Source of the DNA: a virus
Length of the DNA: 30,259 nt
IMG/VR virus record: IMGVR_UViG_3300042882_001602
Coordinates: 1 to 30,259 of that record
Reading direction: 5' to 3' (one strand)
This document shows, in pieces, positions 1 through 22,390 of this stretch. The notes under the pieces were generated by a model that saw nothing but the letters and a program-made list of their open reading frames with translations, searched no databases and had not been told where the DNA came from. Each line of letters begins with the position of its first letter. Positions within the stretch are counted from its first letter, which is position 1. Both the position numbers and the translations under genes were made by a program.

Positions 1-345
1 TACCGCTAGTACCAGATGTTCCTGAGGTGCCATCAGTTCCTGAAGAACCTGATGTACCACTCGTTCCTGAAGTTCCGCTCGTACCAGTTGTACCAGAAGT
101 TCCTGAGGTACCGCTAGTACCAGATGTTCCTGAGGTGCCATCAGTTCCTGAAGAACCTGATGTACCACTCGTTCCTGAAGTTCCGCTCGTACCAGTTGTA
201 CCAGAAGTTCCTGAGGTACCGCTAGTACCAGATGTTCCTGAGGTGCCATCAGTTCCTGAAGAACCTGATGTACCACTCGTTCCTGAAGTTCCGCTCGTAC
301 CAGTTGTACCAGAAGTTCCTGAGGTACCGCTAGTACCAGATGTAC
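1..345 (-). repeat. 108-nt tandem repeat in the collagen-like gene
   Basis: A 108-nt unit (36 codons, 12 Gly-X-Y triplets) repeats with units starting at 31, 139 and 247. Bases 1-30 match the end of the preceding unit, so the array runs off the left edge. Units look essentially identical by eye until the third diverges near 345. The length is a multiple of nine, so gain or loss of a unit keeps the collagen register. Confidence 0.9.
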
Positions 346-3105: not shown

Positions 3106-5280
3106 TTAACAACTTATATCGTATTCAATAGCAATTGAAATGTTTATGATTTGTCCACTCAGATATGGATTGGTTGGACTCTTCGTAATTGTAATTTGAT
3201 TTGTGAGAGGATTGATGTTTACACTCTGTACTCCAGGAACGGCTATCAGTAAATTTTCAACAGCCGAATACCACAAGTTAGAAGCAGGAACATCAACAAG
3301 AGTTGAACCTGAATAGAAAACATCTTGTAAATAAAGACCGACAGGTGTAACTGAAACTGAAGCAATAAATGTTGCGGAGTTAAGAATACAATTTGGATTT
3401 CCGTTTGTTAAATCTTGGAACCCATCATTGAGCATTTCTAACATTCCCATTTCACTTTCCACAGTAACAACTAATTCCTCAGTTCCAACCTCAAAAGGCA
3501 CATAACCTGAATTGACTGCAGAACATGATATTATGGTGCTTCTTTCCAAACTACATCCGTTGGCATCCGTGATTGTTAAATTATATGTTCCCCCTGTCAG
3601 ATTGTTTGCGGTTATTGATTGGGGATTACCAGCAACATTATTCGACCAAGTATAAACAAAAGGTGGAGTTCCTGAAGATATTAGTGCAGTTATAGAACCC
3701 TCTGAACCATTACCACATCCAACAGCAAATAAACTGAACTCCATTTGAGGAGTTCCATTCACAAATACCGTTTGAGATTGTTGACACCCATTAGCATCGG
3801 TAACAGAAATCACATGAGAACCCTGTGAGATGTTTGAATATGTATAACTTGTCAAACTCGAATTCGGAACAACATTTACGTTATCCACCGCATAAGTAAA
3901 AGGTGCCGTTCCACCCGTCGTCATCTCCACATAAATTGAACCATTATTCAACCCACAAGTTGAACCTGTTGTTGAAGTAAAAATTTCAAAAAGATTTGAG
4001 GTAAAAATATTTACGACTTGAGAAAATACACACGAACTATCATCTTCAACTAAAACTGTATATGAGCCTTGATACAAATTATTGAAGGTATAATTCGGGA
4101 GACTGATTGTTGTAGAATCGTTCGAACTATCAGGATAAACCAATGTATAGGTAAATGGTGGAGTACCTTGTCCCACATTTATTGCGATGGAACCGTTGGT
4201 TGAGGAACAAGTAGAATTCGTGGCATTTATAGATATGGAGCCGATTGAATTAGGTGCCTGTAAATTACTTGCAGCATATAATTGACATAAACCTGCGTCT
4301 GTTACAACGAAACCATAATCACCTGAGGGTATGTTTGAGATTGTAAAATTTTGTGCGTAACTTATATCTACATTTCCTGTACTTGCAGAATAATAATACG
4401 GTGCAGTTCCTCCTGAGATAAAAATTTCTAATGCACCATTGGCCTCAAAACAAGTGGGTGTGTATGCACTGAAATATACAAGACCCAAAGTGGGTACATT
4501 GGTTACCTCAGTATTTTTCGTTGTAGAACAACCATTGGAATCTGTAACGGTACAAGAGTAAACCCCCGTTGTAAGACCAGTTATCGTGCTTCCCGTAGCA
4601 TTATTACTCCAAAGATATGTGTAAGGTGGGGTTCCCGTTTGACCCGTTACATATATTTTACCGATTGCCTCACCTGTTGGTAAACATGCGGAGTTTGGTA
4701 CAGTGTAAAAACCAAAATCTAGTGGTGAAGAATCTAAAACTATGAAATTAGATGTTCTAGCTGAACATCCTCCACTATCAACTGCAATAATATAATATGT
4801 ACCACCACTTAAATCTCCTATTTGAAATTCTCCATTTTGTGTATCAATGAAATCAACAAGTGTATTTCCTGTATTATAAACATTGAATTGAACTGCGGAA
4901 GCCGCTGTTGTAGCAGATGGTGTAACAGAACCATTATTTAGCCCACAGGTAGTTGCACTTACTGAAAGAATTGAAGTACAAAATCCACTTGAAACATATG
5001 CGTTTACTAAAATTTGGTTGTTGGTAGGTTGTGCGCTGTCAGTGATGTTGATTTGATAAATTCCAGGGTAAAGACCAGTTCTTACTGACGGAGAAACGGC
5101 TTGTACTTCTAAGGATTCTTCTAAACTTGTTCCTAAAATCGTTTCAGTTGGTGGCAAGACTGGATTAATCCACTCTACCACATAAGGAGGCGTTCCTCCT
5201 GAAGGTAAAATACTAATTACACCTACGCCTTGTGAACTACAATCACCTGTTACATTTAATTCATAACCAATAAAAAACAT
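3106..5280 (-). CDS. SprB-repeat tail/adhesin protein
   Basis: The 724-aa protein contains about seven tandem SprB-like repeats of 70-80 residues, at roughly 10-95, 105-180, 195-260, 275-345, 355-430, 436-510 and 518-585. Each shows the pattern NGSI, then GGTPPYTYxW, then GxYxVxVTDxxGC; the fourth to sixth units are the more divergent. SprB repeats are beta-sandwich units best known from gliding-motility adhesins and other large secreted proteins of Bacteroidota. Residues from about 600 to 724 form a separate C-terminal domain that resembles the end of the upstream 991-aa protein. There is no signal peptide or sorting domain, fitting a virion part rather than a secreted host adhesin. Its ATG overlaps the upstream TAA by one base (TAATG). 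A role as tail fibre or surface-binding appendage is inferred. Confidence 0.8.
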   Translation of the reverse strand: MFFIGYELNVTGDCSSQGVGVISILPSGGTPPYVVEWINPVLPPTETILGTSLEESLEVQAVSPSVRTGLYPGIYQINITDSAQPTNNQILVNAYVSSGFCTSILSVSATTCGLNNGSVTPSATTAASAVQFNVYNTGNTLVDFIDTQNGEFQIGDLSGGTYYIIAVDSGGCSARTSNFIVLDSSPLDFGFYTVPNSACLPTGEAIGKIYVTGQTGTPPYTYLWSNNATGSTITGLTTGVYSCTVTDSNGCSTTKNTEVTNVPTLGLVYFSAYTPTCFEANGALEIFISGGTAPYYYSASTGNVDISYAQNFTISNIPSGDYGFVVTDAGLCQLYAASNLQAPNSIGSISINATNSTCSSTNGSIAINVGQGTPPFTYTLVYPDSSNDSTTISLPNYTFNNLYQGSYTVLVEDDSSCVFSQVVNIFTSNLFEIFTSTTGSTCGLNNGSIYVEMTTGGTAPFTYAVDNVNVVPNSSLTSYTYSNISQGSHVISVTDANGCQQSQTVFVNGTPQMEFSLFAVGCGNGSEGSITALISSGTPPFVYTWSNNVAGNPQSITANNLTGGTYNLTITDANGCSLERSTIISCSAVNSGYVPFEVGTEELVVTVESEMGMLEMLNDGFQDLTNGNPNCILNSATFIASVSVTPVGLYLQDVFYSGSTLVDVPASNLWYSAVENLLIAVPGVQSVNINPLTNQITITKSPTNPYLSGQIINISIAIEYDISC

Positions 5281-8255
5281 TAATTACAATTGATATTAAA
5301 GTTTATTCCAACGTTCAATGTTAGTTGTTCTCCGTTGTATAGTGGTGATGAGGTCAAGTTTGTTATTGTAAGTTGGTTTCCACTTACCACAAAATTATAC
5401 CCCTGAGTATAAAGTTCAGGAAGGTATTGATTTAAGGCATCTATCCACTGTTGATTGCTTGGGTAACCTGTTGAACCTAATCCTTGAAAAAACATCTCTT
5501 GAACCAAAATAGTTGAACCAATTCTTAAATCAACATACCACTCGGTCTGAAGGGTATCTATTACACAATTGTTCAAGTTCAATCCTCTTGATGCTAGGAA
5601 TGTATTCAAAGCAGAAAGCATTACACCATTAAAATCCGACACAGTTGGATTTCCATTGAGCCAAGGATAAATATAAATCGACCAATATTGATTTGAACTT
5701 GTACCCCCTAAGATACCTGACGTAGTCTCGCAGTCAGGTTTCACAACTGGAACCAATTCACAACCCCTTTGTCTTCTGTAAACAAATTTTTGTCTATGTA
5801 AAATTGAATTTTCAAATTTATTACCACCGTTCCAAATTGTGGTGGCAGGAATCATTTGTTCTACCAACTTCATCCAATAAGGGCCTATTCCATTGAGGTA
5901 ATCAATTAACTTTTGATAGGTATATTGATTGTTTACGGTACCGTCCAATTGAAATTGTTGAATATACTTCCACCATATTGATTGAAGAGTTGGATATCCT
6001 CCTGTTTTTCCGTCAGTAATGAATTGTCTGTTTCTTACATTAATCATATTCTCCCAAAAGGTCTGAGAGAATTCAAAAAATGTTTTTTTCTTCGGCTCTG
6101 GATTTATAAAGGTTGAGTCAACACCACCAGGCACAGGGTAACCAATTGTCAATCCTGATTCAGGAATTGGAAAATCATGTTTTCTTGATTGAACCCATAC
6201 ATCATATAACAGACCTTGAGCGGGATTTAAAAACAAATCAATATTCTTAGCATTCAATACTAATTTTTCGTTCTGTGTAAAATAATAGGCATTGTAATCC
6301 GCATTTCTTGAAACCCTTATCTTATCGTCATCAGCAAGCCAAGATTTGTTGTTATCCACAACATACCTCAACGTATAACCCAAATCCATGTATGGAAAAT
6401 TTCTGAACCTATCGAAATATTTTTGTCCGTAGGTGAAAGGTTGAAGTTGAGTTTGTATATCAAAGTTTTGTCCCGTGAAAACATCTCCTGTTACAACAAC
6501 GTCATCAGGACTTCTATGGTCTGGTGTTACCTCATACCACCCCGCACCTATTTCGAAGAAATAATTTTCAGTATCTACAGGTGCTTTTGGATACCCTTCC
6601 GCATCTATCGGGTAATCTTGTGGTGTAGTAAAAACCAGTTCATAACTTGATGAAGAGGTAAAGGCTGAAAATAATTGACCCCTAATTTTATAAGTTGCTC
6701 CAGGTAAATAAGTGGGGGTATCAACTGCATAAGTTCCTCCTGAAATTTGTGCATACTGAGCATTGAAGCTTTCTATATTAATTCTTTGGTCCGCAAGATA
6801 AATGTGCTCATTATATTCAATGAGAGATTGTGGTGCACCTATTAAACCTAAAAGAAATTCAATTGACCTCCTTGTTCCTTTGGATTTGAAAAGATATGCG
6901 GAGTTCAAAATCAAATTTCTATAAAAAGCATAATTAATTTCTGTTGGGGTGAGAGAACGAGCATATCCTGGATAAGTTGGATTTGGTGTTGTTCCAAAAA
7001 TAGAATCCAAAAAGTCCTCATCTGTAATCGGAGAGAAGTTCGAACTCCAACCTAATGTTTGTGATAGATTAACCAAAAGTTGTGAAGGGATATCATTACC
7101 TGGATTGTAATTTACAGAGTTCATAAATGCTAAAGCATCTGCAAATTGTTTGATTTGGTCAAAACTTCTACCGTAAATTTGAAATATCTTTTCAGCTTTT
7201 CTACTTAACGTATCAAATTCTTTCAATGAATCTGAAACAAGAAATCTTGAAACCAGATTGGTTTTATAAGAGTCCAAATTTTCCGCAATCGATTGTAGTT
7301 CGGTCAAATAGTTATCAAACTCAATTCCTCTAATGAGCAAATTCCAACTTCCGTTTTTTGGCCAAGTTACTTGTTTGTATTCGGTATAAAATTGACCATC
7401 TACATTTTGTTGTGGTACTTGGAAAAAGGCAGTATATGGTGGAACAACTAATCTATTTGTCAAAAACTTTTCAACTTCATCGAAATTTTCTGTGAAAACT
7501 TTATCAACAATGTAATCATTTGGTCTAATCAGAAAATTTTGGGTTAGTGTTGTCGCTGTCGTTCCAAAAGGTGCACCCGAAACATAAAACCCCAATATCC
7601 CTGAGCTTAACGTATCTGAAGGTATAAATGATGATACTTGATAAATGTCATCATTGATATCAATACAATAATCCAAATACGAATTCGTCAAATTTCTGAG
7701 ATATGACTGAACAATCTCTCTCGCTTCAATATTTGTTGTGGCACTTACAGAATAATCTATATCGAAAGGATTGATTAACCTATCAAGATTGACTTCGAAG
7801 AAAGTTTCATCTTCGATTTGGTCATATGAGATGTTAATCGCGGTTGCACCTGTTACCAACTCTAAGTTCGTAACAACAACTTCGAGTGCCGCTGGGAAAT
7901 AATTGATGATTTTAGTAACAGAAACTTCAAATCTCTTTGCCAAAGAACCATAAAGAGAAAAATTGAGAACTTGTGAGACATCATAGTTAGGATAAACTCT
8001 GAAATTTGTTGCTTGTATCCTTCTCGACTCAAATATATCCTCAATATTTAAGTCTTCGAGTGATATCAATTCAGAAAAAGCACCGACATTGAACTTGCGG
8101 TTCACCTTCTCTGTCACATTACTTGTGAAATCAAAGGTTCCTAAAGTTAAACCCCCCGCATTAACAGTTTGCAAACCAACTATATTGTCAGAGAAGGTCC
8201 CAGCACCATTTCCAGGTCTCGGGGGATAAAAATATTTTGTTCTACTTGTCGCCAT
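5280..8255 (-). CDS. Large structural-type protein (991 aa), presumed baseplate/tail
   Basis: I do not recognise the family. The 991-aa protein has no signal peptide or membrane segment, is rich in Asn, Tyr, Phe and Ser as is usual in virion proteins, and appears to have several domains. An aromatic-rich region around residues 730-840 (with SIWWKYI and GIGPYWMKLVEQM) precedes a Cys-containing junction near residue 850. The last ~130 residues (ending NVGINFNINCN) match the C-terminal domain of the neighbouring SprB-repeat protein in motif order. It starts on the TAA of the preceding gene (TAATG) and ends the same way, so it is tightly coupled to both neighbours. Downstream of gp25-like and gp6-like genes, it is probably part of the baseplate or the tail-fibre attachment apparatus. 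Confidence 0.75.
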   Translation of the reverse strand: MATSRTKYFYPPRPGNGAGTFSDNIVGLQTVNAGGLTLGTFDFTSNVTEKVNRKFNVGAFSELISLEDLNIEDIFESRRIQATNFRVYPNYDVSQVLNFSLYGSLAKRFEVSVTKIINYFPAALEVVVTNLELVTGATAINISYDQIEDETFFEVNLDRLINPFDIDYSVSATTNIEAREIVQSYLRNLTNSYLDYCIDINDDIYQVSSFIPSDTLSSGILGFYVSGAPFGTTATTLTQNFLIRPNDYIVDKVFTENFDEVEKFLTNRLVVPPYTAFFQVPQQNVDGQFYTEYKQVTWPKNGSWNLLIRGIEFDNYLTELQSIAENLDSYKTNLVSRFLVSDSLKEFDTLSRKAEKIFQIYGRSFDQIKQFADALAFMNSVNYNPGNDIPSQLLVNLSQTLGWSSNFSPITDEDFLDSIFGTTPNPTYPGYARSLTPTEINYAFYRNLILNSAYLFKSKGTRRSIEFLLGLIGAPQSLIEYNEHIYLADQRINIESFNAQYAQISGGTYAVDTPTYLPGATYKIRGQLFSAFTSSSSYELVFTTPQDYPIDAEGYPKAPVDTENYFFEIGAGWYEVTPDHRSPDDVVVTGDVFTGQNFDIQTQLQPFTYGQKYFDRFRNFPYMDLGYTLRYVVDNNKSWLADDDKIRVSRNADYNAYYFTQNEKLVLNAKNIDLFLNPAQGLLYDVWVQSRKHDFPIPESGLTIGYPVPGGVDSTFINPEPKKKTFFEFSQTFWENMINVRNRQFITDGKTGGYPTLQSIWWKYIQQFQLDGTVNNQYTYQKLIDYLNGIGPYWMKLVEQMIPATTIWNGGNKFENSILHRQKFVYRRQRGCELVPVVKPDCETTSGILGGTSSNQYWSIYIYPWLNGNPTVSDFNGVMLSALNTFLASRGLNLNNCVIDTLQTEWYVDLRIGSTILVQEMFFQGLGSTGYPSNQQWIDALNQYLPELYTQGYNFVVSGNQLTITNLTSSPLYNGEQLTLNVGINFNINCN

Positions 8256-10294: not shown

Positions 10295-11097
10295 CGTGGC
10301 GGATTAACATATTCATACCATTTTATCGGATTTGCCGGGTCACCAAGTCTAACACCATTTGTAGTGGTAATTGTATAAGTTTGTTTAGGATAATCTAAAT
10401 TTAGTATGTAATAGAAGTTGGTTAGAGTATTGAAAGTAAATTCGGAATTTGGAAGTGAAGATTGGGGCTGATTCATCATTCTTATGAATGAACCTATTTC
10501 TGCATTATAAAATTTAGCTGTCATATAAAACTTTGTGATATCTAAAAAGTTCCTTTTTTTCAACCAATATATAAAAAATCCCTCCTTGTCTCCAACATAA
10601 TCTAAAACAAACTTTGGTCTGTTTATTTGAACCACCTGTCTTTGCATTTGAACAGGCATTTTGAGACCTTGCTGAGTTGGAATAATTGTTGTCAAATAAT
10701 TTATCTGTTGTTTTTCATCAGGCGAGTCATAAAAATCTAATTTGAAAAACGAGTTAGAAAAATTTCTATTGTAGTAAAATACATCTTGAGCCGAAAAACC
10801 CTCTGTCAAATAATTGATTGACCAATTGTTTATATTTGTCACTGATGTACCTGAGTGAAAATAAAATTCATAATTGACTTCAGTTCGATTGTTAAAGGTA
10901 GTAGAGGTATAGGGTTCGTTTGTAAATCTGCTCACTTCAAAATCTCTCCCGACACCAATAACTTGGGTTATGATGTCTTCCTCATACAAGTCTATACTTT
11001 GGTCAATACCATCATAATCCCATGACAATTCAATGGGGACATTAATAGTCTTGTCAACACCTTGCGTTCTCTCTATTGTAAACTTATTCACACTCAT
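10291..11097 (-). CDS. Structural-type protein (268 aa), unrecognised
   Basis: A 268-aa protein starting MSVNKFTIERTQGVDKTINV. It is rich in Tyr, Phe, Asn and Thr, has no Cys, signal peptide or membrane segment, and shows no enzyme motif. The central part (LKMPVQMQRQVVQINRPKFV) is more basic. It overlaps the upstream gene by 14 nt and the downstream PKD gene by 4 nt, placing it inside one co-translated tail operon. By position it could be a baseplate wedge or fibre-adaptor subunit; I cannot match it to a named T4 protein. Confidence 0.7.
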   Translation of the reverse strand: MSVNKFTIERTQGVDKTINVPIELSWDYDGIDQSIDLYEEDIITQVIGVGRDFEVSRFTNEPYTSTTFNNRTEVNYEFYFHSGTSVTNINNWSINYLTEGFSAQDVFYYNRNFSNSFFKLDFYDSPDEKQQINYLTTIIPTQQGLKMPVQMQRQVVQINRPKFVLDYVGDKEGFFIYWLKKRNFLDITKFYMTAKFYNAEIGSFIRMMNQPQSSLPNSEFTFNTLTNFYYILNLDYPKQTYTITTTNGVRLGDPANPIKWYEYVNPPR

Positions 11098-12766
11098 CTA
11101 TTAAAGGCTTAATTGGGAAATTTATTCCTTGAATTGTACTATTATAATTAGCACCTTCAGGTATTAGTCTGAAAACTATATTCTCGAAAGGGTAGTGTGA
11201 ACTATTCAAAAAAGGGTAGTCTACCCCGATAAAGTTCGAGTCTATAAAACCATATGTGTATAGGTCTCTCCATCTGAATTGTTGGTCAACTTGCGAGAAA
11301 AAAGAATATGTCGGAACATTGTCCACCTCACCGACATCAGCAGTTTCTACGTAGTCCGAAAAATTTCGCAAGGTCATTTTATTATGTGGTGCGTAATAAT
11401 ATCCGAAGTTTTGTGGTAAAGTGGTAAAGTTGTTTTTATTGAAAATAATTTTCTGATAATAAGTTGAAACCACCCTTTCTTGTTGTTCATAATCATTCCA
11501 TTCACAAAAGTCTCCATCTATGATGTCTCCTATTTTCAATGATTTACTATATGCAAAAGTAAATTGAGTGGTTCCCTGTGTTTTTGTGTATTTTTCCAAT
11601 CCTATAGATGTATCGGAGTCTACATTATTTTGGTTCCACCATTGGTTTGGATTTGGTGTGATATTGAATTCCCACCCTTGTTTTATTCCTATGTTCCTTG
11701 TTGGGTCAAAAAAGTATCCCGAATACCCTTTGAATATTATGGATAAAAATAATTCAGATACCGGCCTTTTTTGATTGTCAGTGACACCTGAAAAATCTAT
11801 ATCGTAAGCTGAACTTACACTGTAGGCATTACTACTTGTTTTTTTTGAAATCCTTGTAATTCGATTAGGAGTGAGAGAACTTAATTCAAGTTTTTGTTCT
11901 TCTAAAAAAACATTTTTTTCGAAACCTGCTTTAGTCATTAATAAGTCATCAGGTGTTGTTATTACTTTGTGTTGTCGTATATAATATTTTGATAGTGTCT
12001 CGACAGGATTATCAGGGTTAATCATTCTTTTGAATGTACCCACTTTTCCTGTGTCAAAGGTGGTTCCAATGAATCCATAATTATACACATTGAAAATGTT
12101 TGACTCAGAACCTGTTTGTCCATTACCTAAAGAGAAGACCTCAAACAAATCATTATTTCGATATTTGAAAGAGAGCTTCACATATTCTCCAGGGGTTAAA
12201 CCGTGGGGAGCAACGCAAACAAATTGAATAACATTATTTCCTTGAAACTGAATATTGTTTATTGTAAATGGTATTCCGTCCTTAGCAACCCACGTGTTAA
12301 TTGCACATAGTGTAGTACTTAAAACTTTATTTTCATCATTTTGACTAGCATATGTAAGGTAATAAGACCAATTGTAGGTGTAAGCGCTTTTTGCAAAATA
12401 ATCAACGTGTTGGTCTGAAATATTAGGTCTGAAAAAATCGAATTCATAATATTGTGGAAACCCTTTCCATACTCCACTTGTAACAGACTCTACTTCATTT
12501 ACGTAATAAAGATTGTATTGAAAAGGTATATAATTAGTAGAACCTGTTATTGTGTTCCCATATAGATAAATTACTTTGAATGTTGGTCTATATATTGTGC
12601 ATGCTTGTCTTTCATCATCATAAACTTGTTCCAAACTAATCGTAGAACTTCTATCGTACTCCGTTATGACTTGTTGTTTAGCTTCGAGACTAATTTGGAT
12701 AGATTGGTCTACAGTAGGTGCCTCAGGAAATTGTATCTCGCTCGGTATAATTTTAAAATTATTCAT
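11084..12766 (-). CDS. Structural-type protein (560 aa) at the gp8-like position
   Basis: A 560-aa protein with no recognised family. It starts MNNFKIIPSEIQFPEAP and is very rich in Asn, Tyr, Phe and Thr, typical of tail proteins. No membrane segment or catalytic motif is visible. Its ATG lies inside the end of the 1716-aa gene (8-nt overlap) and its own end overlaps the next start by 14 nt. In T4, genes 6, 7 and 8 follow one another and encode baseplate wedge proteins; this gene is second after the gp6-like gene, so a wedge role is possible by order alone. It is longer than T4 gp8, and I see no sequence motif that proves the link. Confidence 0.7.
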   Translation of the reverse strand: MNNFKIIPSEIQFPEAPTVDQSIQISLEAKQQVITEYDRSSTISLEQVYDDERQACTIYRPTFKVIYLYGNTITGSTNYIPFQYNLYYVNEVESVTSGVWKGFPQYYEFDFFRPNISDQHVDYFAKSAYTYNWSYYLTYASQNDENKVLSTTLCAINTWVAKDGIPFTINNIQFQGNNVIQFVCVAPHGLTPGEYVKLSFKYRNNDLFEVFSLGNGQTGSESNIFNVYNYGFIGTTFDTGKVGTFKRMINPDNPVETLSKYYIRQHKVITTPDDLLMTKAGFEKNVFLEEQKLELSSLTPNRITRISKKTSSNAYSVSSAYDIDFSGVTDNQKRPVSELFLSIIFKGYSGYFFDPTRNIGIKQGWEFNITPNPNQWWNQNNVDSDTSIGLEKYTKTQGTTQFTFAYSKSLKIGDIIDGDFCEWNDYEQQERVVSTYYQKIIFNKNNFTTLPQNFGYYYAPHNKMTLRNFSDYVETADVGEVDNVPTYSFFSQVDQQFRWRDLYTYGFIDSNFIGVDYPFLNSSHYPFENIVFRLIPEGANYNSTIQGINFPIKPLIDECE

Positions 12767-15700
12767 TCGGGAGATATTTTTGTTTGAATTTATCTAAAGC
12801 AGAAGCTCCTTTTGTTACACCGAAATAAAAATGAAATGGAGCACCAACCATAAACTTATCTTTCATACCAGGAAACTTCAATCCACTGTAAAGTCCTTGA
12901 GAATTTTTATTGAAGATATAACCTCTTTGATTTACATCCAGTGTTGTATCAGATGGCACAAAATAATTTGGTGTGGTCAAGTTTCTTCTGTTCAATGATT
13001 GATAAGGTGAACTCACAATATCAGAAATTGAAGTCGCCCAATTATTAAATTCACTACCAAAAATAGTTTGAGAAACAGACCCTTGAGTTAATTGCCATTG
13101 ATAGAAAGGAACTTGTTGTGATTTTATTCCATAATTGAAAACTACTGCGGTAACATTAGGGTCAAATCTAAAATTGATTAACCCTGGTGTAAGAAAATCT
13201 TTTGTTTGTAAATTTTCTGTTGTTGAAGAATAAAACACACCTATCGTAGGATTATCCTGTCCCTGAGTATAAACATAAACAGCATTATTTGGATTATTAT
13301 TTGAGAACGGATAATATTCGGGACTAAAAGGAACTAATCCTATTTCCGAGTTGATAGAAAAAAGTTGTGCTAAGTCCGCATCCAATCTACTTTTTGGGTT
13401 GAACAATGGGCTTGTTGGTCTACCGTTTCTTGTGAATAATGAATTTACGGAATTATCTCTAGCATTTAACATCTGTTGTAAAAAAGTCTTATTAAGAATT
13501 CTTGAAATAACAAAAAGATTTACCAAATCAGATGTGTCAGAATAACTAGTGTTACTCAAATTGTTCATTACGTAAGCATTGGTCGAGGGTTCAAAAATTA
13601 TTTCATCATAAAAGAAATCTTTCATTCCCAAATTCATTATTGTTGTTGGAAAAAGAAGATTTCTATCATTCAATGAAAACTGCGGTGCACTCATGTCCGC
13701 CGGCCTTCCAATAAATCTACCTACAGTTGTTGTTCCTGACCAAGGGCTACTTCTGAAATAAAAATTATTTGTATTTGAATCAAAATATGTGAGTTTATTG
13801 GGATAATTTGGTGGGAGAGCTTTGTTGTTCGAATCGAAAGTAATGTCGACTTGGATTGGGAACATAAATAATGAACCGTTAACCCAATTGTTTGTGAATG
13901 TTTGACTTAGAACCCCTCTACATAATCCATAAAAAAATCTAAATCTGTATGCCCATTCATTAAAATTTCGAATGTCTTTTCCTATATCTCGTATTCTTCT
14001 TTTTACAAAAGTATAACATCCTCTCTCCACTTGGTCTAATTCCGAACAGTTCAAATTTACCGTAAAACCAGTACCCGTTCCATCGTAACAAGACAGACTA
14101 ACCATGTTTTCACAGGTGAAGGTACTGAATACATTAGTTTCACCATACTGACCCGCAATATCTTCAGTAGGTTGTTGTGCCCCTGTGCTTACCACAGTGT
14201 TTTCAATATTCTCCGCAGACCCACTCTCATCGGAGATTAAATATATTCCAAAATTCAAATTTTGTTGTAGTAAAGACGGATTAACTTTCCAGCTTGAACC
14301 ATCCAATTGGTCAGAACTTGGGAGTCTATCAGTTCTAAACACATTTCTTGTGTTTGTTTGAATATTCATTGGTGTTGCGCTGAATGTTGGGTAATATGTA
14401 TAAGTCAAGTTGAACATCCCAACTTCATCAGGTTCATACCCATCACATTTACCAACAAAAGCAGCACCTCCAGATAAATCTTCTGTTGCACCATAGAAAG
14501 CTGAGGGTTCATCAAAAGTATAACTTGCAATTCGGTTACTCAATGTTCCGTTGAATATATTACCTGTAGCAGGGCTGGAGATAATTGCATTTTGGAAGTT
14601 AGTACCTAAATTTACAACTTGTAAATACCCACGAGCAAAAGGGGAACCGTAAAGTTGATTAGGGTTATATGTACGTACAATTTGTGATGCATCTAAGGAT
14701 GAGTAGTATCCAACTTGTGATGTGGTAAATGCAGACCACTGTGTGCCGACAGTAGTTGAACCATTAATTCCTCCTCGGAAAAAGTGGGACGGGTAAAAAA
14801 TTTCGTTCTGACCATTAACTGTAAATGGTTGAACGGTCATAGTTGTGGTTTCCAATTTTTGAATTGGAATGTTCAGTTTTGTACTTGCAGTTATTATTAA
14901 ATTTGAATCAGACCCCATGTTTTTTCCAAACAAAACGTTTAGGTCATACTTGTTATTATATTTTGGTGAATATGGGTCAACACCCCTTTGTAAGATTACC
15001 AAGTATTGTTTATCAAAATCTTCAAAAAGAGTAGATACTTGATATTCAGGACTTACTGTTGGTGGTCCCCAACCTAAACCTATAATATTTCCAATACTTT
15101 CTTTTGTATTCAAAATGAATCTAGTTTTGGAGGTCAAAACATCTGGAAGAGTTTCGGGTGGGAATGAAGTAGGAAAATATTGAGAGGCTTCTGCCATGGT
15201 CATAGCCGTTACAACCTGAAAATATTCAACATCTGAAGCGAATTTATAAATGTCGTTTGTGGAACCATATCCTAGCCGATAAGTAGAACTTCTCTCAGCT
15301 CTTGGGTTGTCAGGGTCTGCATATTTTACTTCATAAGTTGATGCTCCAACATTAAGAGGAGTTCCTGTGATACCAAAAAATGCACTACTTTGGTTTCCAA
15401 AATACTTGTAATTTACATCTTGTGAATCAACTGGATTTACAAAGGTGAGAAGTTGTCCAGTTTCAAATTTTTCTTGACAAGAAATACATAAAGTATTATC
15501 CAAGTGAAATGAAGTATTTCCTGTAAAATCAAAAGTAACTTTAATTCTATTTTTATTAGTAAAATATTTTTGTCTTAGATTAAACAAATTAAATCTTTCA
15601 CCGTAGGGTAGATAATTTGTAAAAATATATCCTGGCCTAAGGTTATCTCTTTGATTATGAATGAATGCTTCAAATGATTGTGGTGTTTTATATGTTTGAA

Positions 15701-17909
15701 CTTCCAATAACCTATCAATGGTTCTTCCTCTTTGTGAGCTAGGATTTCCCGCGAAAACAGAACTTAACATAAATTCAAGAATATCGAAGTCATCAGGGTT
15801 TACATTCGAGGGTTCTAAAATATTACTGTAAATAAGTGAACCATAATTCCAATTACCTGAGTAATATGAAAGAATACTATAACCAACAGAGATATTATTT
15901 GAACCCTCATCTCTTGTTGTACATGGACATCCTTCACAATCAGGATATGTTATTGCAGGTAGGGTTAATACCTTAACCGTTTTACCCTGTAATAATCTAC
16001 CTAAAAGGGTAGCAACAATTGCAAATGCTAATGTTTTACCGAAAGACGCCAGGTAAGACCAACCCTGAGCAAGTGCTTGTGCTGCCTGTAATTTTAAAGC
16101 GAAGGCCACCAAAGCATTTTGAACGGCATTTATGTCCACCCTCGCCGGCGCAATAGCCGCCTGAAATTCCAAATTACCGGCCTGAACGAAACTTATGATT
16201 GCTAAAGTTAAATAAAGACCAGCTACTGTAAAAAGAAATGCTTGAAGTAAACCCTTCGTTTCATTTAAAAAATCCCATAAACCTAAAATGAAATGTATTG
16301 CAACAATAAGTGGTGCGGATATTAATTGAAAAATTTGCAATATAATTGATACTATAAAATAGAGTAAATCAAAATTCCTAAATCCTTCGTTTACAGGGAA
16401 TTTATTTACAGTATCCGCACAAGAATTATCGTCAATTTCTTTAATACCAATAAATCTACTTCTTCCACCAAATTTGAATTGGTCTATTAATGAAGAAGGG
16501 GTATAAACTCGATTGTATTCAAATTGATAAAAAGTGTCCTGACAATTTATAATTTCATCTATTCTTGAACTTGCTTCCTGTGTTGAAAAACCATTTGTAT
16601 ACCCTGACCAATCTAAACCAAAATAATATGAACTTCCTAATCTAGCTCTTGCCGATGTGCTGAAGCCCAAATTTGGGTCGTTAGAAGGACTTGTCCATCC
16701 ATATTCTTTAACATTAGGTAATAAATAATATGGTCTTCTAACCCCATCCGTTAACGTCGCGGCTTGTGTCCACTTAATTTTAAATCTATATTTGGCTTTG
16801 GTTGGAATTCCGATAGTTGGGTCATAAGATATCACTTTTTCTCCAAATTCATTTGTAATGAAATAATCCAAATTCATTGGAAGTTCCAATAACCATGAAC
16901 CATTCTCGTCTATGACATTTCCGTTCTGTTCTATTTGGTATTGCTCTAATATTGGATTTCCGCTTATATCCAAATTTATGTTTTGTCTTATCGCCAATAT
17001 TTGACCGGTGCCTGTCTCTAAACTACACAAGTTTCCAAAATTATCTTTCGGCCTTTGCCCCAAAATAGTCAAATTTGTAAAAGGTAACTTGAAATCTGGT
17101 CTCACTCTCATTGAGTCCGAAGTAGAATATATCGACCCCATGAAAACAGAGGTGGGTTGAATATCAATATTTGCTTCATCCCTCAAATCAAAATCAACCC
17201 TGTTAATTGCAATCTGACAAATTGATGGTTCACCCCAAAGTGGAGAAATCTCAACAGATTTCGAAAGACTTACAATCTGCGGTAAAGAATTTAAATCAGT
17301 GGATGTTCTAAATCTATTTCCAGCAACTTGAGCTTCTGTTGCCCTTCCCATTCTAATCAAATCTTGAGGTGTTACAGAGAACTCTCCGATATCAGAAAGG
17401 TCGACATCCATAACTACAGTTTGTTCTCCAAGAGGAACACCCATAATCATATAGTCACCACTATCATTAGTTTTGGCTGTGAACTTATAATATTTTTCGT
17501 AAATTTCGAAAGCGGTATTTCCTGTTAATACATCAAGTCTTGTAGGAAGGGTTCCTGTTGCTGCGTGAACGGAATAAGATTTTTCGTAAGGTAATAAATT
17601 GTATCTATAACCATCTTCGTTTTTATCCTCAGGTGATTTGTATGGATAGATGGAAGAAATTACAGGGTTGGATTCATCAATTGCTTCTATTGGAATAAAG
17701 ATTGAAACTCTGGCGTTTGGTAGACCCAATCCATTGTTTGCTGTAAGACGACCTACAATCACACCATACTCACTACAAGCTCTTAGATAGATGTCTGTTT
17801 GATTTAATTTCAACGACAATATTTCCAAAAACTCAAACTCTTGGTCAAGTTCTACGTTGATTGATTTGGTGATGCCAAGTTCCGTTCTAATCCTATATGA
17901 TTGACCCAT
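12759..17909 (-). CDS. Giant tail/baseplate protein with carboxypeptidase-regulatory-like domain and hydrophobic island
   Basis: This is the longest gene (1716 aa). Near the N-terminus a carboxypeptidase-regulatory-like beta-sandwich is visible: GVIVGRL and GLPNARVSIFIPI at 49-75, an insertion, then TNDSGDYMIMGVPLGEQTV at about 147-165. Residues 513-642 form a strongly hydrophobic island: 513-545, 554-578 and 619-642 are each long enough to cross a membrane, with an Ala/Gln-rich amphipathic stretch between the last two. A CxxCxC cluster (C658, C661, C663) and a later CxxC (CISC, near 806) follow. The remainder is Asn/Tyr/Phe/Ser-rich like other virion proteins here. Directly downstream of a gp6-like gene it occupies the position of T4 gene 7 (baseplate wedge), but it is much longer and no gp7 similarity is claimed. 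A tape-measure or host-envelope-contacting role is an alternative. Confidence 0.75.
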   Translation of the reverse strand: MGQSYRIRTELGITKSINVELDQEFEFLEILSLKLNQTDIYLRACSEYGVIVGRLTANNGLGLPNARVSIFIPIEAIDESNPVISSIYPYKSPEDKNEDGYRYNLLPYEKSYSVHAATGTLPTRLDVLTGNTAFEIYEKYYKFTAKTNDSGDYMIMGVPLGEQTVVMDVDLSDIGEFSVTPQDLIRMGRATEAQVAGNRFRTSTDLNSLPQIVSLSKSVEISPLWGEPSICQIAINRVDFDLRDEANIDIQPTSVFMGSIYSTSDSMRVRPDFKLPFTNLTILGQRPKDNFGNLCSLETGTGQILAIRQNINLDISGNPILEQYQIEQNGNVIDENGSWLLELPMNLDYFITNEFGEKVISYDPTIGIPTKAKYRFKIKWTQAATLTDGVRRPYYLLPNVKEYGWTSPSNDPNLGFSTSARARLGSSYYFGLDWSGYTNGFSTQEASSRIDEIINCQDTFYQFEYNRVYTPSSLIDQFKFGGRSRFIGIKEIDDNSCADTVNKFPVNEGFRNFDLLYFIVSIILQIFQLISAPLIVAIHFILGLWDFLNETKGLLQAFLFTVAGLYLTLAIISFVQAGNLEFQAAIAPARVDINAVQNALVAFALKLQAAQALAQGWSYLASFGKTLAFAIVATLLGRLLQGKTVKVLTLPAITYPDCEGCPCTTRDEGSNNISVGYSILSYYSGNWNYGSLIYSNILEPSNVNPDDFDILEFMLSSVFAGNPSSQRGRTIDRLLEVQTYKTPQSFEAFIHNQRDNLRPGYIFTNYLPYGERFNLFNLRQKYFTNKNRIKVTFDFTGNTSFHLDNTLCISCQEKFETGQLLTFVNPVDSQDVNYKYFGNQSSAFFGITGTPLNVGASTYEVKYADPDNPRAERSSTYRLGYGSTNDIYKFASDVEYFQVVTAMTMAEASQYFPTSFPPETLPDVLTSKTRFILNTKESIGNIIGLGWGPPTVSPEYQVSTLFEDFDKQYLVILQRGVDPYSPKYNNKYDLNVLFGKNMGSDSNLIITASTKLNIPIQKLETTTMTVQPFTVNGQNEIFYPSHFFRGGINGSTTVGTQWSAFTTSQVGYYSSLDASQIVRTYNPNQLYGSPFARGYLQVVNLGTNFQNAIISSPATGNIFNGTLSNRIASYTFDEPSAFYGATEDLSGGAAFVGKCDGYEPDEVGMFNLTYTYYPTFSATPMNIQTNTRNVFRTDRLPSSDQLDGSSWKVNPSLLQQNLNFGIYLISDESGSAENIENTVVSTGAQQPTEDIAGQYGETNVFSTFTCENMVSLSCYDGTGTGFTVNLNCSELDQVERGCYTFVKRRIRDIGKDIRNFNEWAYRFRFFYGLCRGVLSQTFTNNWVNGSLFMFPIQVDITFDSNNKALPPNYPNKLTYFDSNTNNFYFRSSPWSGTTTVGRFIGRPADMSAPQFSLNDRNLLFPTTIMNLGMKDFFYDEIIFEPSTNAYVMNNLSNTSYSDTSDLVNLFVISRILNKTFLQQMLNARDNSVNSLFTRNGRPTSPLFNPKSRLDADLAQLFSINSEIGLVPFSPEYYPFSNNNPNNAVYVYTQGQDNPTIGVFYSSTTENLQTKDFLTPGLINFRFDPNVTAVVFNYGIKSQQVPFYQWQLTQGSVSQTIFGSEFNNWATSISDIVSSPYQSLNRRNLTTPNYFVPSDTTLDVNQRGYIFNKNSQGLYSGLKFPGMKDKFMVGAPFHFYFGVTKGASALDKFKQKYLPNE

Positions 17910-17996: not shown

Positions 17997-19835
17997 TTAA
18001 GAGAAGGTAATAGATTGGAAGTTCTTAACTGAAACTCTAATATCTTTATTCGGAAATCTTATCTGATAAATTTGGTTAGGTTGAGCAAATATTGTATCAT
18101 CAACAGGTCCAACTTGTTTGAGTTCAGGGTCAGAATATTCCATAGAAGTCTCTGCGGATGAATATTGTCCGCCTACCTCATTGAAGACATCGATACTTGC
18201 AACAGTCAATACTCCGTTTGTATTTTGAATTATACTTCTTAGTTCTGAAAGATATACGTTTTGTCCAAGTTCTCTTGTTTGAGGATTAAAATAAGCAGAT
18301 ATTTTGTCGATTACGTTGGTAATAACTTGACCTGAGTTTTGAGCCGAGTCTAAAACTATTGAAACATCAACACTCAAATCAATAACCTCAGCACTGAAAA
18401 TCGAAATATAGTCATTCATCATTCTGTAGTTTGACAAGTAGTTTGCAATATTTTGTTTCAAGGTATTTGAAACAATGTTAGTCAATCTTCCTGATGTATC
18501 GTATGAAAGAATTTGAACTAGTATTTTATTGTCGTTTTCGGTTATCGCCACTTTTGCTGGTGCTCCAAACTGAGCTGGCATCGTTCTGATTATTGACTCA
18601 TAGTCTGAAACTGTGACTGCTCTTTTTTGTGCTGCGAAGTTAAATGAAACATAGTTTCTTACTTCGTCAATCGTTGGCATGTTTGCACCACCAATTGCTG
18701 CTGTAACGTTATTACATCTCAACGAATTAACCACTGCGGTGTTTGTATTGTCTGATGGGCCATTTACAAAAAATGATACAGTCCCAACTTGATTAATTAC
18801 ATTTGTTCCCATGTTTGTGTTAAGTCCACCCCCAACTCTATATTGAATAAACAAAGTAGAGTTAGGTCTAAGTGCTGAACCTAAAGAAAGATTGTTGGTA
18901 TACTTTTGTAAATCCAATGTTGCACCTAAAGTTGTAAATTGGTCTAAGGCATCTTGCGCTGTATTTGTACCTCCACCGAACGTTAACTTCTTGAAACCCT
19001 CTGAAGTAAACTCTGATATAAATCTATTTTGAGTTTGAATGTATCTACCAACTTTTATACCGGGTTGGTCAGAAACTTTTGTTGGGTCTTCTACAAATAT
19101 TCTATCTTCCGCTAATGCATCAACTTCATACCATCTATCTTGTAAACCTAAAAATTCTGCAGTGCTCGGTAAGTTAGTAAACTGAGTTCCATTTTTCAAT
19201 AACACACTTGTGATACCTAAAACATTTTTTTCAGGTAAAAACAATTCAAAGAATGGTCTAACATCATTTGGTGTGATTACTCTTTTGAACACTTTTGTTA
19301 TTCCGTTTACTACAACTTCTCTTTTTGTTATTGTGTAATTGATTAAAACTCCATTAGCATTGAAATTTGGTATTTTCAATCTATTAGGGAAACCTTGAGA
19401 ATTATATGGGGAAGCGAAATCAATATCTTCCACGTTTTCAAAAACTATACCCGCACCGATTACTTGTGAACCTCTTAGTAAGGTTCCAAGATATCTTTCA
19501 TCTTCTTTATCTCCGAAGGCTGGAACGGTGATTGAAAAATCAACAAGAGCCACAGATGGTCTCATTCCAGGTATTTTCAAACCATAAGTTCTAGCTATAT
19601 TGTAGATTGAAGACTTTTGTTGAGCATATTGTAATACTGTCTCTTGTAAACTTCTATCAATATGAAAATTAAGATTGTCAGCTACAGCAGCGTTTAAATC
19701 AAGAAATACTGAAAATACTGAGGCGTCATTAAAATCTTGAATAAGTTCGGGATAATAAGTTCTTACATAATTTTGTAACTCAACTCTAATTGCCGCGAAG
19801 TCTCTTGTAGCGTATGATATATTTCTATCTGCCAT
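17997..19835 (-). CDS. gp6: Baseplate wedge protein, gp6-like (baseplate J family)
   Basis: The 612-aa product resembles T4 gp6 and phage P2 gpJ-type wedge proteins, which form the ring of the contractile-tail baseplate. The N-terminus (ISYATRDFAAIRVELQNYV, then DLNAAVADNLNFHIDRSLQE and RTYGLKIPGMRPS) has the usual opening of this family. The C-terminal half contains the typical region around AVTVSDYESIIR with long helices and a beta stretch near VYLSELRSIIQNTNGV. The length is close to T4 gp6 (about 660 aa). It starts 5 nt after the gp25-like gene; gp25/gpW and gp6/gpJ homologues are commonly adjacent in contractile tails, which supports both calls. Confidence 0.88.
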   Translation of the reverse strand: MADRNISYATRDFAAIRVELQNYVRTYYPELIQDFNDASVFSVFLDLNAAVADNLNFHIDRSLQETVLQYAQQKSSIYNIARTYGLKIPGMRPSVALVDFSITVPAFGDKEDERYLGTLLRGSQVIGAGIVFENVEDIDFASPYNSQGFPNRLKIPNFNANGVLINYTITKREVVVNGITKVFKRVITPNDVRPFFELFLPEKNVLGITSVLLKNGTQFTNLPSTAEFLGLQDRWYEVDALAEDRIFVEDPTKVSDQPGIKVGRYIQTQNRFISEFTSEGFKKLTFGGGTNTAQDALDQFTTLGATLDLQKYTNNLSLGSALRPNSTLFIQYRVGGGLNTNMGTNVINQVGTVSFFVNGPSDNTNTAVVNSLRCNNVTAAIGGANMPTIDEVRNYVSFNFAAQKRAVTVSDYESIIRTMPAQFGAPAKVAITENDNKILVQILSYDTSGRLTNIVSNTLKQNIANYLSNYRMMNDYISIFSAEVIDLSVDVSIVLDSAQNSGQVITNVIDKISAYFNPQTRELGQNVYLSELRSIIQNTNGVLTVASIDVFNEVGGQYSSAETSMEYSDPELKQVGPVDDTIFAQPNQIYQIRFPNKDIRVSVKNFQSITFS

Positions 19836-19840
19836 TTCTT

Positions 19841-20320
19841 TTAAATATTGATTATTACAAAATCACTCTGTGCAAAGGTTTGTGCATTGACTGAATAATC
19901 TATTTTTATTTTTGCCGTATATTCTCCTGTACCTTTCCCAGGTACTCTATAAATGTCCGTAAGTCTTGGGTCACTTGAAATGGGTTGTTCATTAATACTA
20001 TTAACCTCAACAGATTGGTCTGCGGGTTCAATAGTTATTTGATTTACAAGGAGATTTGGCATAAATTGATTTATTGAATCACGTATGTCTGACTCAATTG
20101 CTTGGAAGGTCAACCCGTCATTAGGTTCAAATATGAACTCATAAAGTCTTGTTCCAAATTCAGGTAAATAATATCTTGAACCCTTTCTAGTTAGAAGTAG
20201 AAAAATCAAATCTGCCCTGATTTGTTGTGATTCAAATTCTGTCAGTCTAAGATAATCACCTCTAAGTGAATCCTCAAAAGGAAATTTCAAACCATAAGTA
20301 ACACCTTCTGCCATAAACAT
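19841..20320 (-). CDS. gp25: Baseplate wedge subunit, gp25-like (GPW/gp25 family)
   Basis: The 159-aa product has the gp25/gpW signature: an N-terminal FPFEDSLRGDYLRLTE segment, then LLLTRKGSRYYLPEFGTRLY and EFIFEPND at 41-68, followed by a helix around QAIESDIRDSINQFMP. gp25 is the small conserved wedge protein that holds the sheath initiator and wedge core in contractile tails. The annotated start is ATG at 20320 (MFMAEG); a second ATG at 20314 (MAEGVTYG) is equally plausible, and neither has a clear Shine-Dalgarno. The C-terminal ~40 residues extend past the conserved core. It is followed after 5 nt by the gp6-like gene. Confidence 0.88.
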   Translation of the reverse strand: MFMAEGVTYGLKFPFEDSLRGDYLRLTEFESQQIRADLIFLLLTRKGSRYYLPEFGTRLYEFIFEPNDGLTFQAIESDIRDSINQFMPNLLVNQITIEPADQSVEVNSINEQPISSDPRLTDIYRVPGKGTGEYTAKIKIDYSVNAQTFAQSDFVIINI

Positions 20321-20327
20321 AAATATA

Positions 20328-20528
20328 CTACGGTGTTTTTTTAATTAAAGTTGTATTCCCTTTAATTGCTTTCCGTTCAAATGGACAATGTCTACATCCT
20401 GAACCGCAACAGTATCCCCTACTCAAATGATAAGATTCGGTCATAACTTTTCGTCCATTCTCCATGTAAAAATCAGAAGGGAGAAGTTTTGACTTCTCCC
20501 TTTGACTATCGTTTTTACTTTCTTTCAT
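20328..20528 (-). CDS. DUF5522-type small cysteine-rich protein
   Basis: The 66-aa protein carries LLPSDFYMENGRKVMTESYH followed by LSRGYCCGSGCRHCPF, the pattern I associate with DUF5522, a small family of unknown function found mainly in cellular bacteria including Bacteroidota. Four Cys and one His in the CCGSGCRHC motif suggest metal binding. Its ATG overlaps the reductase stop by one base (TAATG), so co-translation with the reductase is likely. A strong terminator-like hairpin lies within its first third (20477-20502). A shorter start at Met22 (20465) would avoid the hairpin but would lose the conserved LLPSDFY part. It was probably acquired from a host; any link to cobalamin or nucleotide metabolism is only suggested by position. 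Confidence 0.75.
   Translation of the reverse strand: MKESKNDSQREKSKLLPSDFYMENGRKVMTESYHLSRGYCCGSGCRHCPFERKAIKGNTTLIKKTP
20477..20502 (-). terminator. Terminator-like hairpin inside the DUF5522-type gene
   Basis: An 11-bp perfect stem pairs 20477-20487 with 20492-20502 around a 4-nt loop. On the minus strand the downstream arm ends CTTCTCCCTT and is followed by CTGATTTTTACATGG, giving a short T run. It lies 26-51 nt beyond the reductase stop, as expected for a terminator of that gene, yet it is within the coding sequence of the next gene. It may act as an attenuator or an RNA 3'-end stabiliser. Confidence 0.6.
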
Positions 20529-22390
20529 TAAACAAATTTTACTTCACAAGCGCCACCAGCACATGCCGCTTCACCACTCAAATCTGTATTGTCGTCAATT
20601 TCAACGATTTTGGATAAATCAACGTCCTTAAGTGTTGCCATTAATTCGTCATACTTTTCTTTGGTACAATCTTCGAACGGTGCTTGAATATAAGTTCCAC
20701 CATCATAAGGTAGTACAGAAAGACCATTATAATACTCTTTGTTTTCCCACATCCACTCACCTACTGCAGGCCATTCGTGTTCACGAATTGAAACTGTTGC
20801 AGATACGTTGTGAGCGTTTGAGCCACTTCTATGACCAGGTTTAATCCATTCTTGTTGTACCTTTTTAACTCTCTCTAAAAGTTGAATTGGTGATTCGTTT
20901 CTTAGAATTGAACCCTCTGGTGATTTTTGTGGAATACCAATAACCGCAGTGTCGTGTGGTCTGAAGTATTCGTCTTCTACTAATTCAGGATGATTACTCT
21001 TAAGATGACTGTAAATTGCTTCGTTCTTACCAACTCTCACTCTTCTGATATAGTAATCGTTGTGCCAAGCGTGAATACCTGATGAAGTTCCAAGGGTAAG
21101 AGATGTTGTTCCCGCTGGTTTAACTGTTGTTGTTCTAGCTGCAGGATTTATTCCAATTATTTCAGCAACTCTTTTGTTTTCTTCTTTTACTACTTTAGCA
21201 GCTGATTTCATGTTCAATCCTAAGACCGCACCTGAACCAATACCTGTCATTGAAATTCCAATCAATGCGTCTTTTTCAGTTGTTCTTTGCCAAATTGGTC
21301 TGAGGTAGTGAAAATCAGTATAACCTGCTTGAAGTGTCCCGATGAATGTTGCAGCTTTAACTCTATCCTCATAGTCTTCTTGTGATACAACATTGGATAC
21401 ATTCACCTCCGTAAGATTACAGAATTGGAATGGACGAAGTGCAATTTCACAACATGGGTTAGTTCCCCAATCTTTATCGTTACTCAAATAAATTCCTGGT
21501 TCACCAGCACCACTCGCTTCAATTCTTTTCCAAAGGTCCATAAAGTAATCCTTTGTAATCTTGTGTCTCATAAGAACGGCCGAGTTATTAGCCCTACCCC
21601 TTTGTGGGTTGTGTTCCCACCATTGACCACTTTTACAACCAATCATTTCTTCATCTGTTGCTGAGAACAAAGAAATCAAAGCCGCTCTTCTGATACCACC
21701 CGCAAGAACCGCATCCGCAATATGGCAAACCATATCATGAACTTCAATTGGTCTGAGTTTGTCACCGTCTTGTTTTGCATCTAAAATACCTTCTAATTTG
21801 ATAAGACACTCTTTGAGAGGTTGAGGACCGGGTGCTTTACCACCTGAGGTAACAAGTCTCGCACCTTTTGGTCTGATATCACTGAAATCGAATTCGATGT
21901 GTGAACCACCAAAGAAGTAAGTTTTAACCAAAACTTTAATTGCATCTGCCCATCCCTCGATAGAATCCGCAACCAACCATCTTCTACCTCTTTCTTTACT
22001 TGGTTTTCTAATTTCGGGTAATGCGTCTACGTGATGTTTTTGAACAGAATATCCCACACCTGTTCCACCTAACAATAGAAACATAATTTCAGAAAAAACT
22101 CTCCAATCATCAACAGGTGCATATGCACAGTTATAAATTCTGTTTGGTGAAATTTCAATTGGTTTTCCTGCAAACTGCATTGACCTCATTGATGGAAGAA
22201 CTTGTTTCTTGTAAACATACATGTAATTCTCTCTGATTTCATTTTCTAATTGTGGAAACTTTTTGATATGCATCTCCATGTTTCTTGTGACAAGCTCTTG
22301 CCACGTCTCTCTTCTCTTCAACTCAGGGATATACTTTGCATACTTCATATACACTGTAATCTCTGATAAAATTCTGTTCGAAATGTCCAT
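20528..22390 (-). CDS. nrdJ: Adenosylcobalamin-dependent ribonucleotide reductase (class II)
   Basis: The 620-aa enzyme reduces ribonucleotides to deoxyribonucleotides using a thiyl radical generated by adenosylcobalamin. Key residues are visible: C88 in RIYNCAYAP, the active-site N311-P-C313-C-E315 (NPCCEIALRPFQFCN), C324 eleven residues after C313, and the C-terminal redox pair C610/C615 (CAGGAC). These match C119, C408, C419 and C731/C736 of the Lactobacillus leichmannii triphosphate reductase. GGTGVGYSVQ at 108-117 is also typical. It is shorter than the ~739-aa Lactobacillus enzyme but keeps all catalytic residues. No small radical subunit or thioredoxin gene is visible nearby, as expected for class II. 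It would supply dNTPs for phage replication and relies on host cobalamin. An ATATTTAATAA motif lies in the 134-nt region upstream. Confidence 0.93.
   Translation of the reverse strand: MDISNRILSEITVYMKYAKYIPELKRRETWQELVTRNMEMHIKKFPQLENEIRENYMYVYKKQVLPSMRSMQFAGKPIEISPNRIYNCAYAPVDDWRVFSEIMFLLLGGTGVGYSVQKHHVDALPEIRKPSKERGRRWLVADSIEGWADAIKVLVKTYFFGGSHIEFDFSDIRPKGARLVTSGGKAPGPQPLKECLIKLEGILDAKQDGDKLRPIEVHDMVCHIADAVLAGGIRRAALISLFSATDEEMIGCKSGQWWEHNPQRGRANNSAVLMRHKITKDYFMDLWKRIEASGAGEPGIYLSNDKDWGTNPCCEIALRPFQFCNLTEVNVSNVVSQEDYEDRVKAATFIGTLQAGYTDFHYLRPIWQRTTEKDALIGISMTGIGSGAVLGLNMKSAAKVVKEENKRVAEIIGINPAARTTTVKPAGTTSLTLGTSSGIHAWHNDYYIRRVRVGKNEAIYSHLKSNHPELVEDEYFRPHDTAVIGIPQKSPEGSILRNESPIQLLERVKKVQQEWIKPGHRSGSNAHNVSATVSIREHEWPAVGEWMWENKEYYNGLSVLPYDGGTYIQAPFEDCTKEKYDELMATLKDVDLSKIVEIDDNTDLSGEAACAGGACEVKFV

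Follow-up and report, generated by a model that had tools for sequence, protein, structure and literature searches.

Why should a giant protein encoded among baseplate genes carry, in its middle, a cluster of segments hydrophobic enough to enter a membrane? The question is raised by an IMG/VR virus record of 30,259 bases (hereafter the window, meaning the whole stretch of DNA analyzed), in which a gene at 12759..17909 on the minus strand encodes a 1716-aa protein. The original prediction was that this presumed baseplate protein buries a membrane-active module in the virion and releases it on the host envelope during infection. Here we ask what kind of phage carries this gene, how the protein is built, whether the hydrophobic island is conserved, and which explanation fits it best.

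Gene context and phage lineage

The structural genes of the window are all encoded by the minus strand and begin with gp25-like and gp6-like genes, followed by those for proteins of 1716, 560, 268, 364, 302, and 991 aa and, last, a 724-aa SprB-repeat protein. The gp25-like baseplate wedge protein (19841..20320, minus strand) matches PHROG 261 and PF04965, and the gp6-like baseplate wedge protein (Baseplate_J; 17997..19835, minus strand) matches PHROG 219/6 (E values of 1e-26/1e-23) and PF04865; the gene for the 1716-aa protein thus directly follows a gp6-like gene, as originally predicted. Its end is overlapped by 8 bases by the gene for the 560-aa protein (11084..12766, minus strand); the two are neighbors in 72 of 73 loci. 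The gene order from gp25 to the 991-aa protein (gp25-gp6-1716-aa-560-268-364-302-991) is retained in essentially all loci with enough flanking DNA. The 724-aa protein (3106..5280, minus strand) contains SprB repeats (PF13573, E = 4e-22) and is a probable fiber or adhesin.

Relatives on contigs of 309-326 kb encode a gp23-type major capsid protein, as does a 197-kb marine/polar relative, and one of the 309-326 kb relatives also has matches to the T4-type portal and terminase together with a tail sheath. We therefore assign these viruses to the T4-superfamily phages, most of them jumbo phages. Their host is probably a member of Bacteroidota, because SprB repeats are present and, by gp6, Flavobacterium phage immuto ranks among the nearest isolates.

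Other parts of these genomes deserve brief mention. Between the replication genes and gp25, the window has a 620-aa ORF (20528-22390) that is ribonucleotide reductase-like by sequence motifs; matches to it are missing at that position in several relatives (e.g., L071). Near the start of the window, two ORFs overlap on opposite strands (27-1640, plus strand, and 637-1590, minus strand); the former encodes a Val-Pro-Glu repeat and the latter probably a collagen-like or Gly-Thr-Ser-type fiber repeat. The 326-kb relative encodes a radical-SAM-domain protein (L215:1145-3262, minus strand) close to its tail-fiber genes.

An undescribed protein family

The 1716-aa protein had no match in Pfam, PHROGs, NCBIfam, a PDB sequence search, or INPHARED (tblastn). 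Two distant homologs used as tblastn queries likewise found no match in INPHARED, and no relative was present in GTDB genome contigs; the family is undescribed in every collection searched. Its relatives come from IMG/VR, where the protein query retrieved 37 loci and a profile search retrieved at least 563, and two further scans reached distant clades.

Profile comparison ruled out homology to T4 gp7, gp8, gp10, and gp53, as well as to the cassette proteins of phages immuto, Mel-JY01, and LR756508. For T4 gp7 the HHalign probability was 0.1-0.2 (<1%), with no comparison above threshold, and Pfam detected no Tail_P2_I domain in the 1716-aa protein. The three phages, which are relatives by gp6, have no detectable homolog of the 1716-aa protein in the fetched baseplate regions; their large cassette protein is 1265-1400 aa long, and among the tail genes tested in immuto none encodes a TM-strength segment. 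The presumed role as a baseplate protein is based on gene context, with gp6- and gp25-like neighbors and strict synteny; similarity to T4 gp7 does not contribute.

Which protein, then, occupies the place of gp7? The 991-aa protein (5280..8255, minus strand) contains a domain common to the large cassette proteins of Flavobacterium phage immuto, Microcystis phage Mel-JY01, and LR756508 (HHalign 95.4%, E = 1.7e-8), and the only Tail_P2_I signal in the 326-kb relative, a sub-threshold one (E = 0.0985), comes from the L071 ortholog of this protein. Together these matches place the gp7/gpI role in the 991-aa protein, which by sequence appears to be a better candidate for it than the 1716-aa protein. 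We therefore treat the latter as an extra, lineage-specific component.

A hydrophobic island in the middle of the protein

Kyte-Doolittle hydropathy in 19-residue windows showed three hydrophobic stretches, at residues 509-549, 552-580, and 618-640, which are the sole ones above 1.4 in the 1716-aa protein. They and the CxxCxC cluster that follows (C658, C661, and C663) lie where the original prediction placed them; the codon of C663 (15921-15923) is at the edge of the interval given there. We re-implemented a Hessa-type insertion-energy predictor, with which control helices of LepB and bacteriorhodopsin score correctly. Taking a dG of <1 as TM strength, this predictor found three such segments within residues 513-640: 526-548 (-0.38 kcal/mol), 554-575 (-1.14 kcal/mol), and 619-640 (-0.15 kcal/mol). 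No segment of any other protein in the window scored below 1.5. The N terminus of the 1716-aa protein has no hydrophobic segment nearby, and there is therefore no sign of ordinary export.

On the one hand, the top hydropathy window (2.32) is unexceptional when compared with shuffles of the same protein (mean of maxima, 1.85; 99.9% quantile, 2.89), so that this single maximum is not significant on its own. On the other hand, three such segments inside 130 residues, in an island that occupies the same position in 123 of 123 distinct homologs, are more than chance would give. Its conservation leads us to reject a chance origin.

Domain architecture

The protein is built of an N-terminal domain, a predicted hydrophobic helical hairpin, a cysteine motif, and a large beta-rich C-terminal region. 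The N-terminal region (residues 1-512; 16374..17909, minus strand) is the best conserved part and is found in all clades; even for the distant ones, the marine/polar clade among them, identity is 34-43%. Residues ~48-170 probably form a transthyretin/carboxypeptidase-regulatory-like beta domain: CarboxypepD_reg was detected below threshold in two homologs (L186 and L108, with E values of 8e-4 and 1.7e-3), and the AlphaFold 2 (AF2) model of this region matches weakly to TTR-like domains only, including PA1324 (3qec, Foldseek probability 0.98). Foldseek matches of the same model to cytolysin and STING were discarded because of low probability and TM-scores.

The island itself consists of two parts that differ in conservation. 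The core hydrophobic helix (residues 513-548; 16266..16373, minus strand) contains the TM segment 526-548 and is helical in the AF2 model. Its length is 34-36 residues in all aligned homologs, only 2.9% of its residues are charged, its mean hydropathy is 1.95, and two polar residues in it, Q528 and H539, are nearly invariant. The variable hydrophobic part (residues 549-645; 15975..16265, minus strand) contains the TM-like segments 554-575 and 619-640 and an Ala/Gln-rich amphipathic linker. Conservation within the protein is lowest here, with lengths from 33 to 135 residues and 14% identity among homologs, yet mean hydropathy stays at 0.92, whereas equally variable stretches elsewhere in the protein are hydrophilic (-0.07 to -0.47). 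The flanks of the island are asymmetric: acidic residues prevail in the 20 positions before it and basic ones in the 15 that follow (net positive in 2% versus 85% of homologs).

Overall confidence is low in the AF2 model of residues 1-1000 (pLDDT 66.6, pTM 0.39), but the model places helices at 515-589 and 595-640 with pLDDT mostly between 70 and 92. In this low-confidence model the island is a helical hairpin and does not run through a globular core, an outcome that agrees with the original prediction.

Behind the basic stretch lies the YPDCxxCxC motif (residues 655-663; 15921..15947, minus strand), whose conservation exceeds 90% in the main family; in distant clades it is shortened to YPxCxxC or gives way to other cysteines. 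The C-terminal region (residues 664-1716; 12762..15920, minus strand) is beta-rich in the AF2 model of residues 640-1716 (pLDDT 74.6, pTM 0.56), for which neither PDB nor BFVD gave a credible fold match. An NxWxNGSLxxF motif at approximately residues 1341-1350 of this region is also found in distant clades. In one subclade (L068, L069, L072, L074, L078, L096, L101, and L105), the protein has a second, independent hydrophobic block at approximately residues 1030-1093, with dG values down to -2.56.

Conservation of the island and synteny with gp6

Each of the 123 distinct homologs that were long enough for testing has, at the same place, one or more TM-strength segments; the identities of these homologs range from 34 to 100%. 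The best segment has a dG of <0 in 116 of the homologs, and the median of the best values is -1.72. Among about 700 distinct orthologs of 17 neighboring genes, none has a TM-strength segment; apparent exceptions, SprB-repeat neighbors with TM segments, all turned out to be family members from the marine clade. Rather than being absent from close homologs, a possibility raised with the original prediction, the island was found in every homolog, close or distant, an outcome in favor of that prediction.

Because sampling by the protein itself could introduce ascertainment bias, we also ran a search anchored on gp6, taking in gp6 loci with enough downstream DNA. The family protein follows gp6 in all 68 of these loci, and the island is present in each of the 51 copies long enough for testing. 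In 67 loci the family protein follows directly; in the remaining one (L235) it comes after a lengthened gp6 ORF. The gp6 match in that locus (L235:1214-3660) spans 2447 bp, versus ~1836 bp elsewhere, and its gp6 gene seems to contain an insertion. Among most relatives, gp6 is about 82-88% conserved.

The most divergent homologs come from marine/polar phages and show 34-39% identity over the first ~540 residues. Most of the middle of the protein is missing from them, whereas its N-terminal region is retained together with a single, very hydrophobic helix and the NxWxNGSL motif. The one marine-clade copy tested (L186) has SprB repeats in its C-terminal part (residues 832-987, E = 2e-11), and this protein also matches a PHROG called Hoc-like head decoration. 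These two matches suggest that adhesin modules may be exchanged among virion proteins.

Two side observations concern individual loci. In the marine/polar clade, an ORF of ~103-109 aa that starts with MGCGCK or MSCCK lies between gp6 and the family protein (L184:5675-5998 and L186:5676-5996; also in L189, L197, L201, L202, and L205). Its product contains a strong hydrophobic segment and is a possible partner of the family protein. In another locus (L028:10640-10660), a clean 313-bp deletion relative to L036 and L113 takes out most of the island and leads to a stop at residue 551. Over the compared 3 kb, L028 is otherwise 100% identical to L036, and the deletion is either an assembly error or a real population variant.

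Comparison with T4 gp7, tape measures, and other contractile machines

The protein of T4 that invites comparison is gp7, which is also large and encoded directly after gp6. Wedge proteins of its type are marked by forming the (gp6)2-gp7 core bundle. The original prediction took T4 gp7 as soluble and the location of the module as unusual; both statements need qualification. T4 gp7 is indeed a baseplate component with solved structures, but it (L294:7061-10159) carries a TM-like segment at residues 879-900 (dG -0.22), and its GenBank record describes the C terminus as a predicted integral membrane domain, so that the location is not wholly without parallel. It is the sole T4 wedge protein tested that has such a segment; T4 gp29 has one marginal segment (236-258, -0.11), and the remaining T4 baseplate proteins tested have none. 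Since the structure of gp7 was solved despite this segment, a single segment of such strength is no proof of membrane contact. The gp7 value is close to that of the weakest segment of the 1716-aa protein, and 114 of the 123 homologs score better. Moreover, gp7 has one marginal segment near its C terminus, whereas the family has an island of one to four segments in the middle of the protein.

Tape measures, such as those of the lactococcal phage TP901-1 and T4 (gp29), are also tail proteins of the virion with a TM-predicted region, although their genes occupy another position than that of the 1716-aa protein. The first TM-predicted region of the TP901-1 tape measure is essential for infection (PMC5099701), but the authors doubted membrane insertion and proposed chaperone binding for this hydrophobic region (PMC5099701). 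The 1716-aa protein does not resemble a tape measure, which is long and mainly helical and determines tail length by its own length: except for the island, both halves are mainly beta or loop in the AF2 models, and we saw no tape-measure repeats. In the 326-kb relative, a separate 2569-aa ORF near the sheath is the likely tape measure, and we found no TM segment in it (best value, 2.46).

Contractile machines other than phages provide further points of reference. In prePAAR effectors of the T6SS, N-terminal TM domains are held by Eag chaperones in a pre-insertion state (PMC12881460); here, too, a contractile machine carries a TM domain that is to be released into a target membrane. However, the TM domain of these effectors is N-terminal rather than in the middle of the protein, Pfam detected no PAAR or toxin domain in the 1716-aa protein, and three large contigs contained no Eag/DcrB-type chaperone (DUF1795, PF08786). 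In a thylakoid-anchored CIS, the TM helix of the tail-fiber-like protein Cis13 anchors the baseplate (PMC8894136); CisA links the Streptomyces CIS, a contractile machine, to the membrane (PMC12237407); and TssN docks the T6SS baseplate of Bacteroidota (PMC10781749). By their descriptions, these are membrane-linked partners of phage-tail-like baseplates, but the machines that they anchor remain in their own cell, whereas a phage must leave.

Possible roles of the island

What does the island do? We infer the presence of the protein in the virion from gene order only, and what follows about timing and membrane insertion is to be read in the same conditional sense. It is conceivable, though in our estimation unlikely, that the island never contacts lipid but is buried as the hydrophobic core of a soluble helical bundle, formed by the hairpins of several copies of the protein or together with gp6 or other wedge proteins. 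T4 gp7, with its TM-like segment in a solved baseplate component, is a precedent, and gp6- and gp7-type proteins do form helical core bundles in contractile baseplates (PMC10457771, PMC8894135). The core helix, with its constant length and the near invariance of Q528 and H539, has features expected of a packing helix and probably makes specific contacts; furthermore, the continuous AF2 helices, of 75 and 46 residues, exceed what a bilayer needs. We counted the same helices in favor of a membrane, as they are long and do not form a compact core. The second half of the island fits a packed core poorly, because it varies freely while its proposed partner gp6 is well conserved: a stretch that is variable yet hydrophobic shows the pattern of lipid-facing helices and would be odd for a core packed on gp6. 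In addition, the 991-aa protein is the better gp7-type bundle partner. Insertion energies mostly well below the gp7 value and the independent block gained elsewhere in the protein by one subclade also speak against a soluble core; they raise the probability of a membrane role but do not settle it.

If the island does engage a membrane, it could be that of the producing cell, where the protein might anchor itself and the growing baseplate to the inner membrane during assembly. Cis13, CisA, and TssN are precedents, and the anchoring would resemble that by Cis13, but we regard this role as rather improbable, since a virion, unlike the anchored machines, must exit the cell. Furthermore, the positive-inside rule predicts a cytoplasmic location for the basic C-terminal flank, in which case the 500-aa N-terminal region would have to cross the membrane without a signal peptide. 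Given the charge asymmetry and the lack of a signal peptide, insertion of the ordinary kind thus seems less likely in the producing cell, and the fiber-type SprB repeats of the marine-clade C-terminal region fit an exposed part of the virion better. It is also imaginable that the 1716-aa protein never enters the virion but resides in a membrane of the infected cell (acting, for example, in surface exclusion or envelope remodeling) and is encoded in the baseplate cassette by chance. TTR/carboxypeptidase-regulatory-like and SprB domains do occur in bacterial surface proteins, too. We give this little credence, as the cassette order and the position after gp6 are kept so strictly, and the protein has neither a signal peptide nor an N-terminal hydrophobic segment.

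In the explanation that we favor, with a chance of being right that is not far from even, the 1716-aa protein associates with the baseplate as a component specific to this lineage, and its hydrophobic hairpin engages the membrane of the host in the course of infection. The hairpin would be the membrane-engaging module, composed of one fixed 36-residue helix and a freely varying second half, and would most likely be packed in or on the virion baseplate before infection. Upon tail docking and contraction, it would contact or insert into the host membrane, and the inserted hairpin may open or stabilize the path of the tube, a task usually assigned to tape-measure or ejected proteins. More tentatively, one may propose that, in a whole lineage of T4-superfamily jumbo phages, engagement of the membrane during infection has passed from the tape measure to a dedicated giant protein associated with the baseplate; its hairpin would be kept ready in the virion for release into the host envelope, and its distal part would evolve freely, perhaps with host lipids or envelope.

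Implications for contractile-tail phages

To our knowledge, how the tube and DNA of a T4-like contractile tail pass the inner membrane is still an open question. The family described here is a concrete candidate for this step, with a TM-strength module found across hundreds of uncultured jumbo-phage contigs. Our results suggest that a part predicted to pierce a membrane or anchor to it may be kept in or on the baseplate of these phages and that contractile-tail phages may hold membrane modules outside the tape measure, in parallel to the links between baseplate and membrane in CIS and T6SS.
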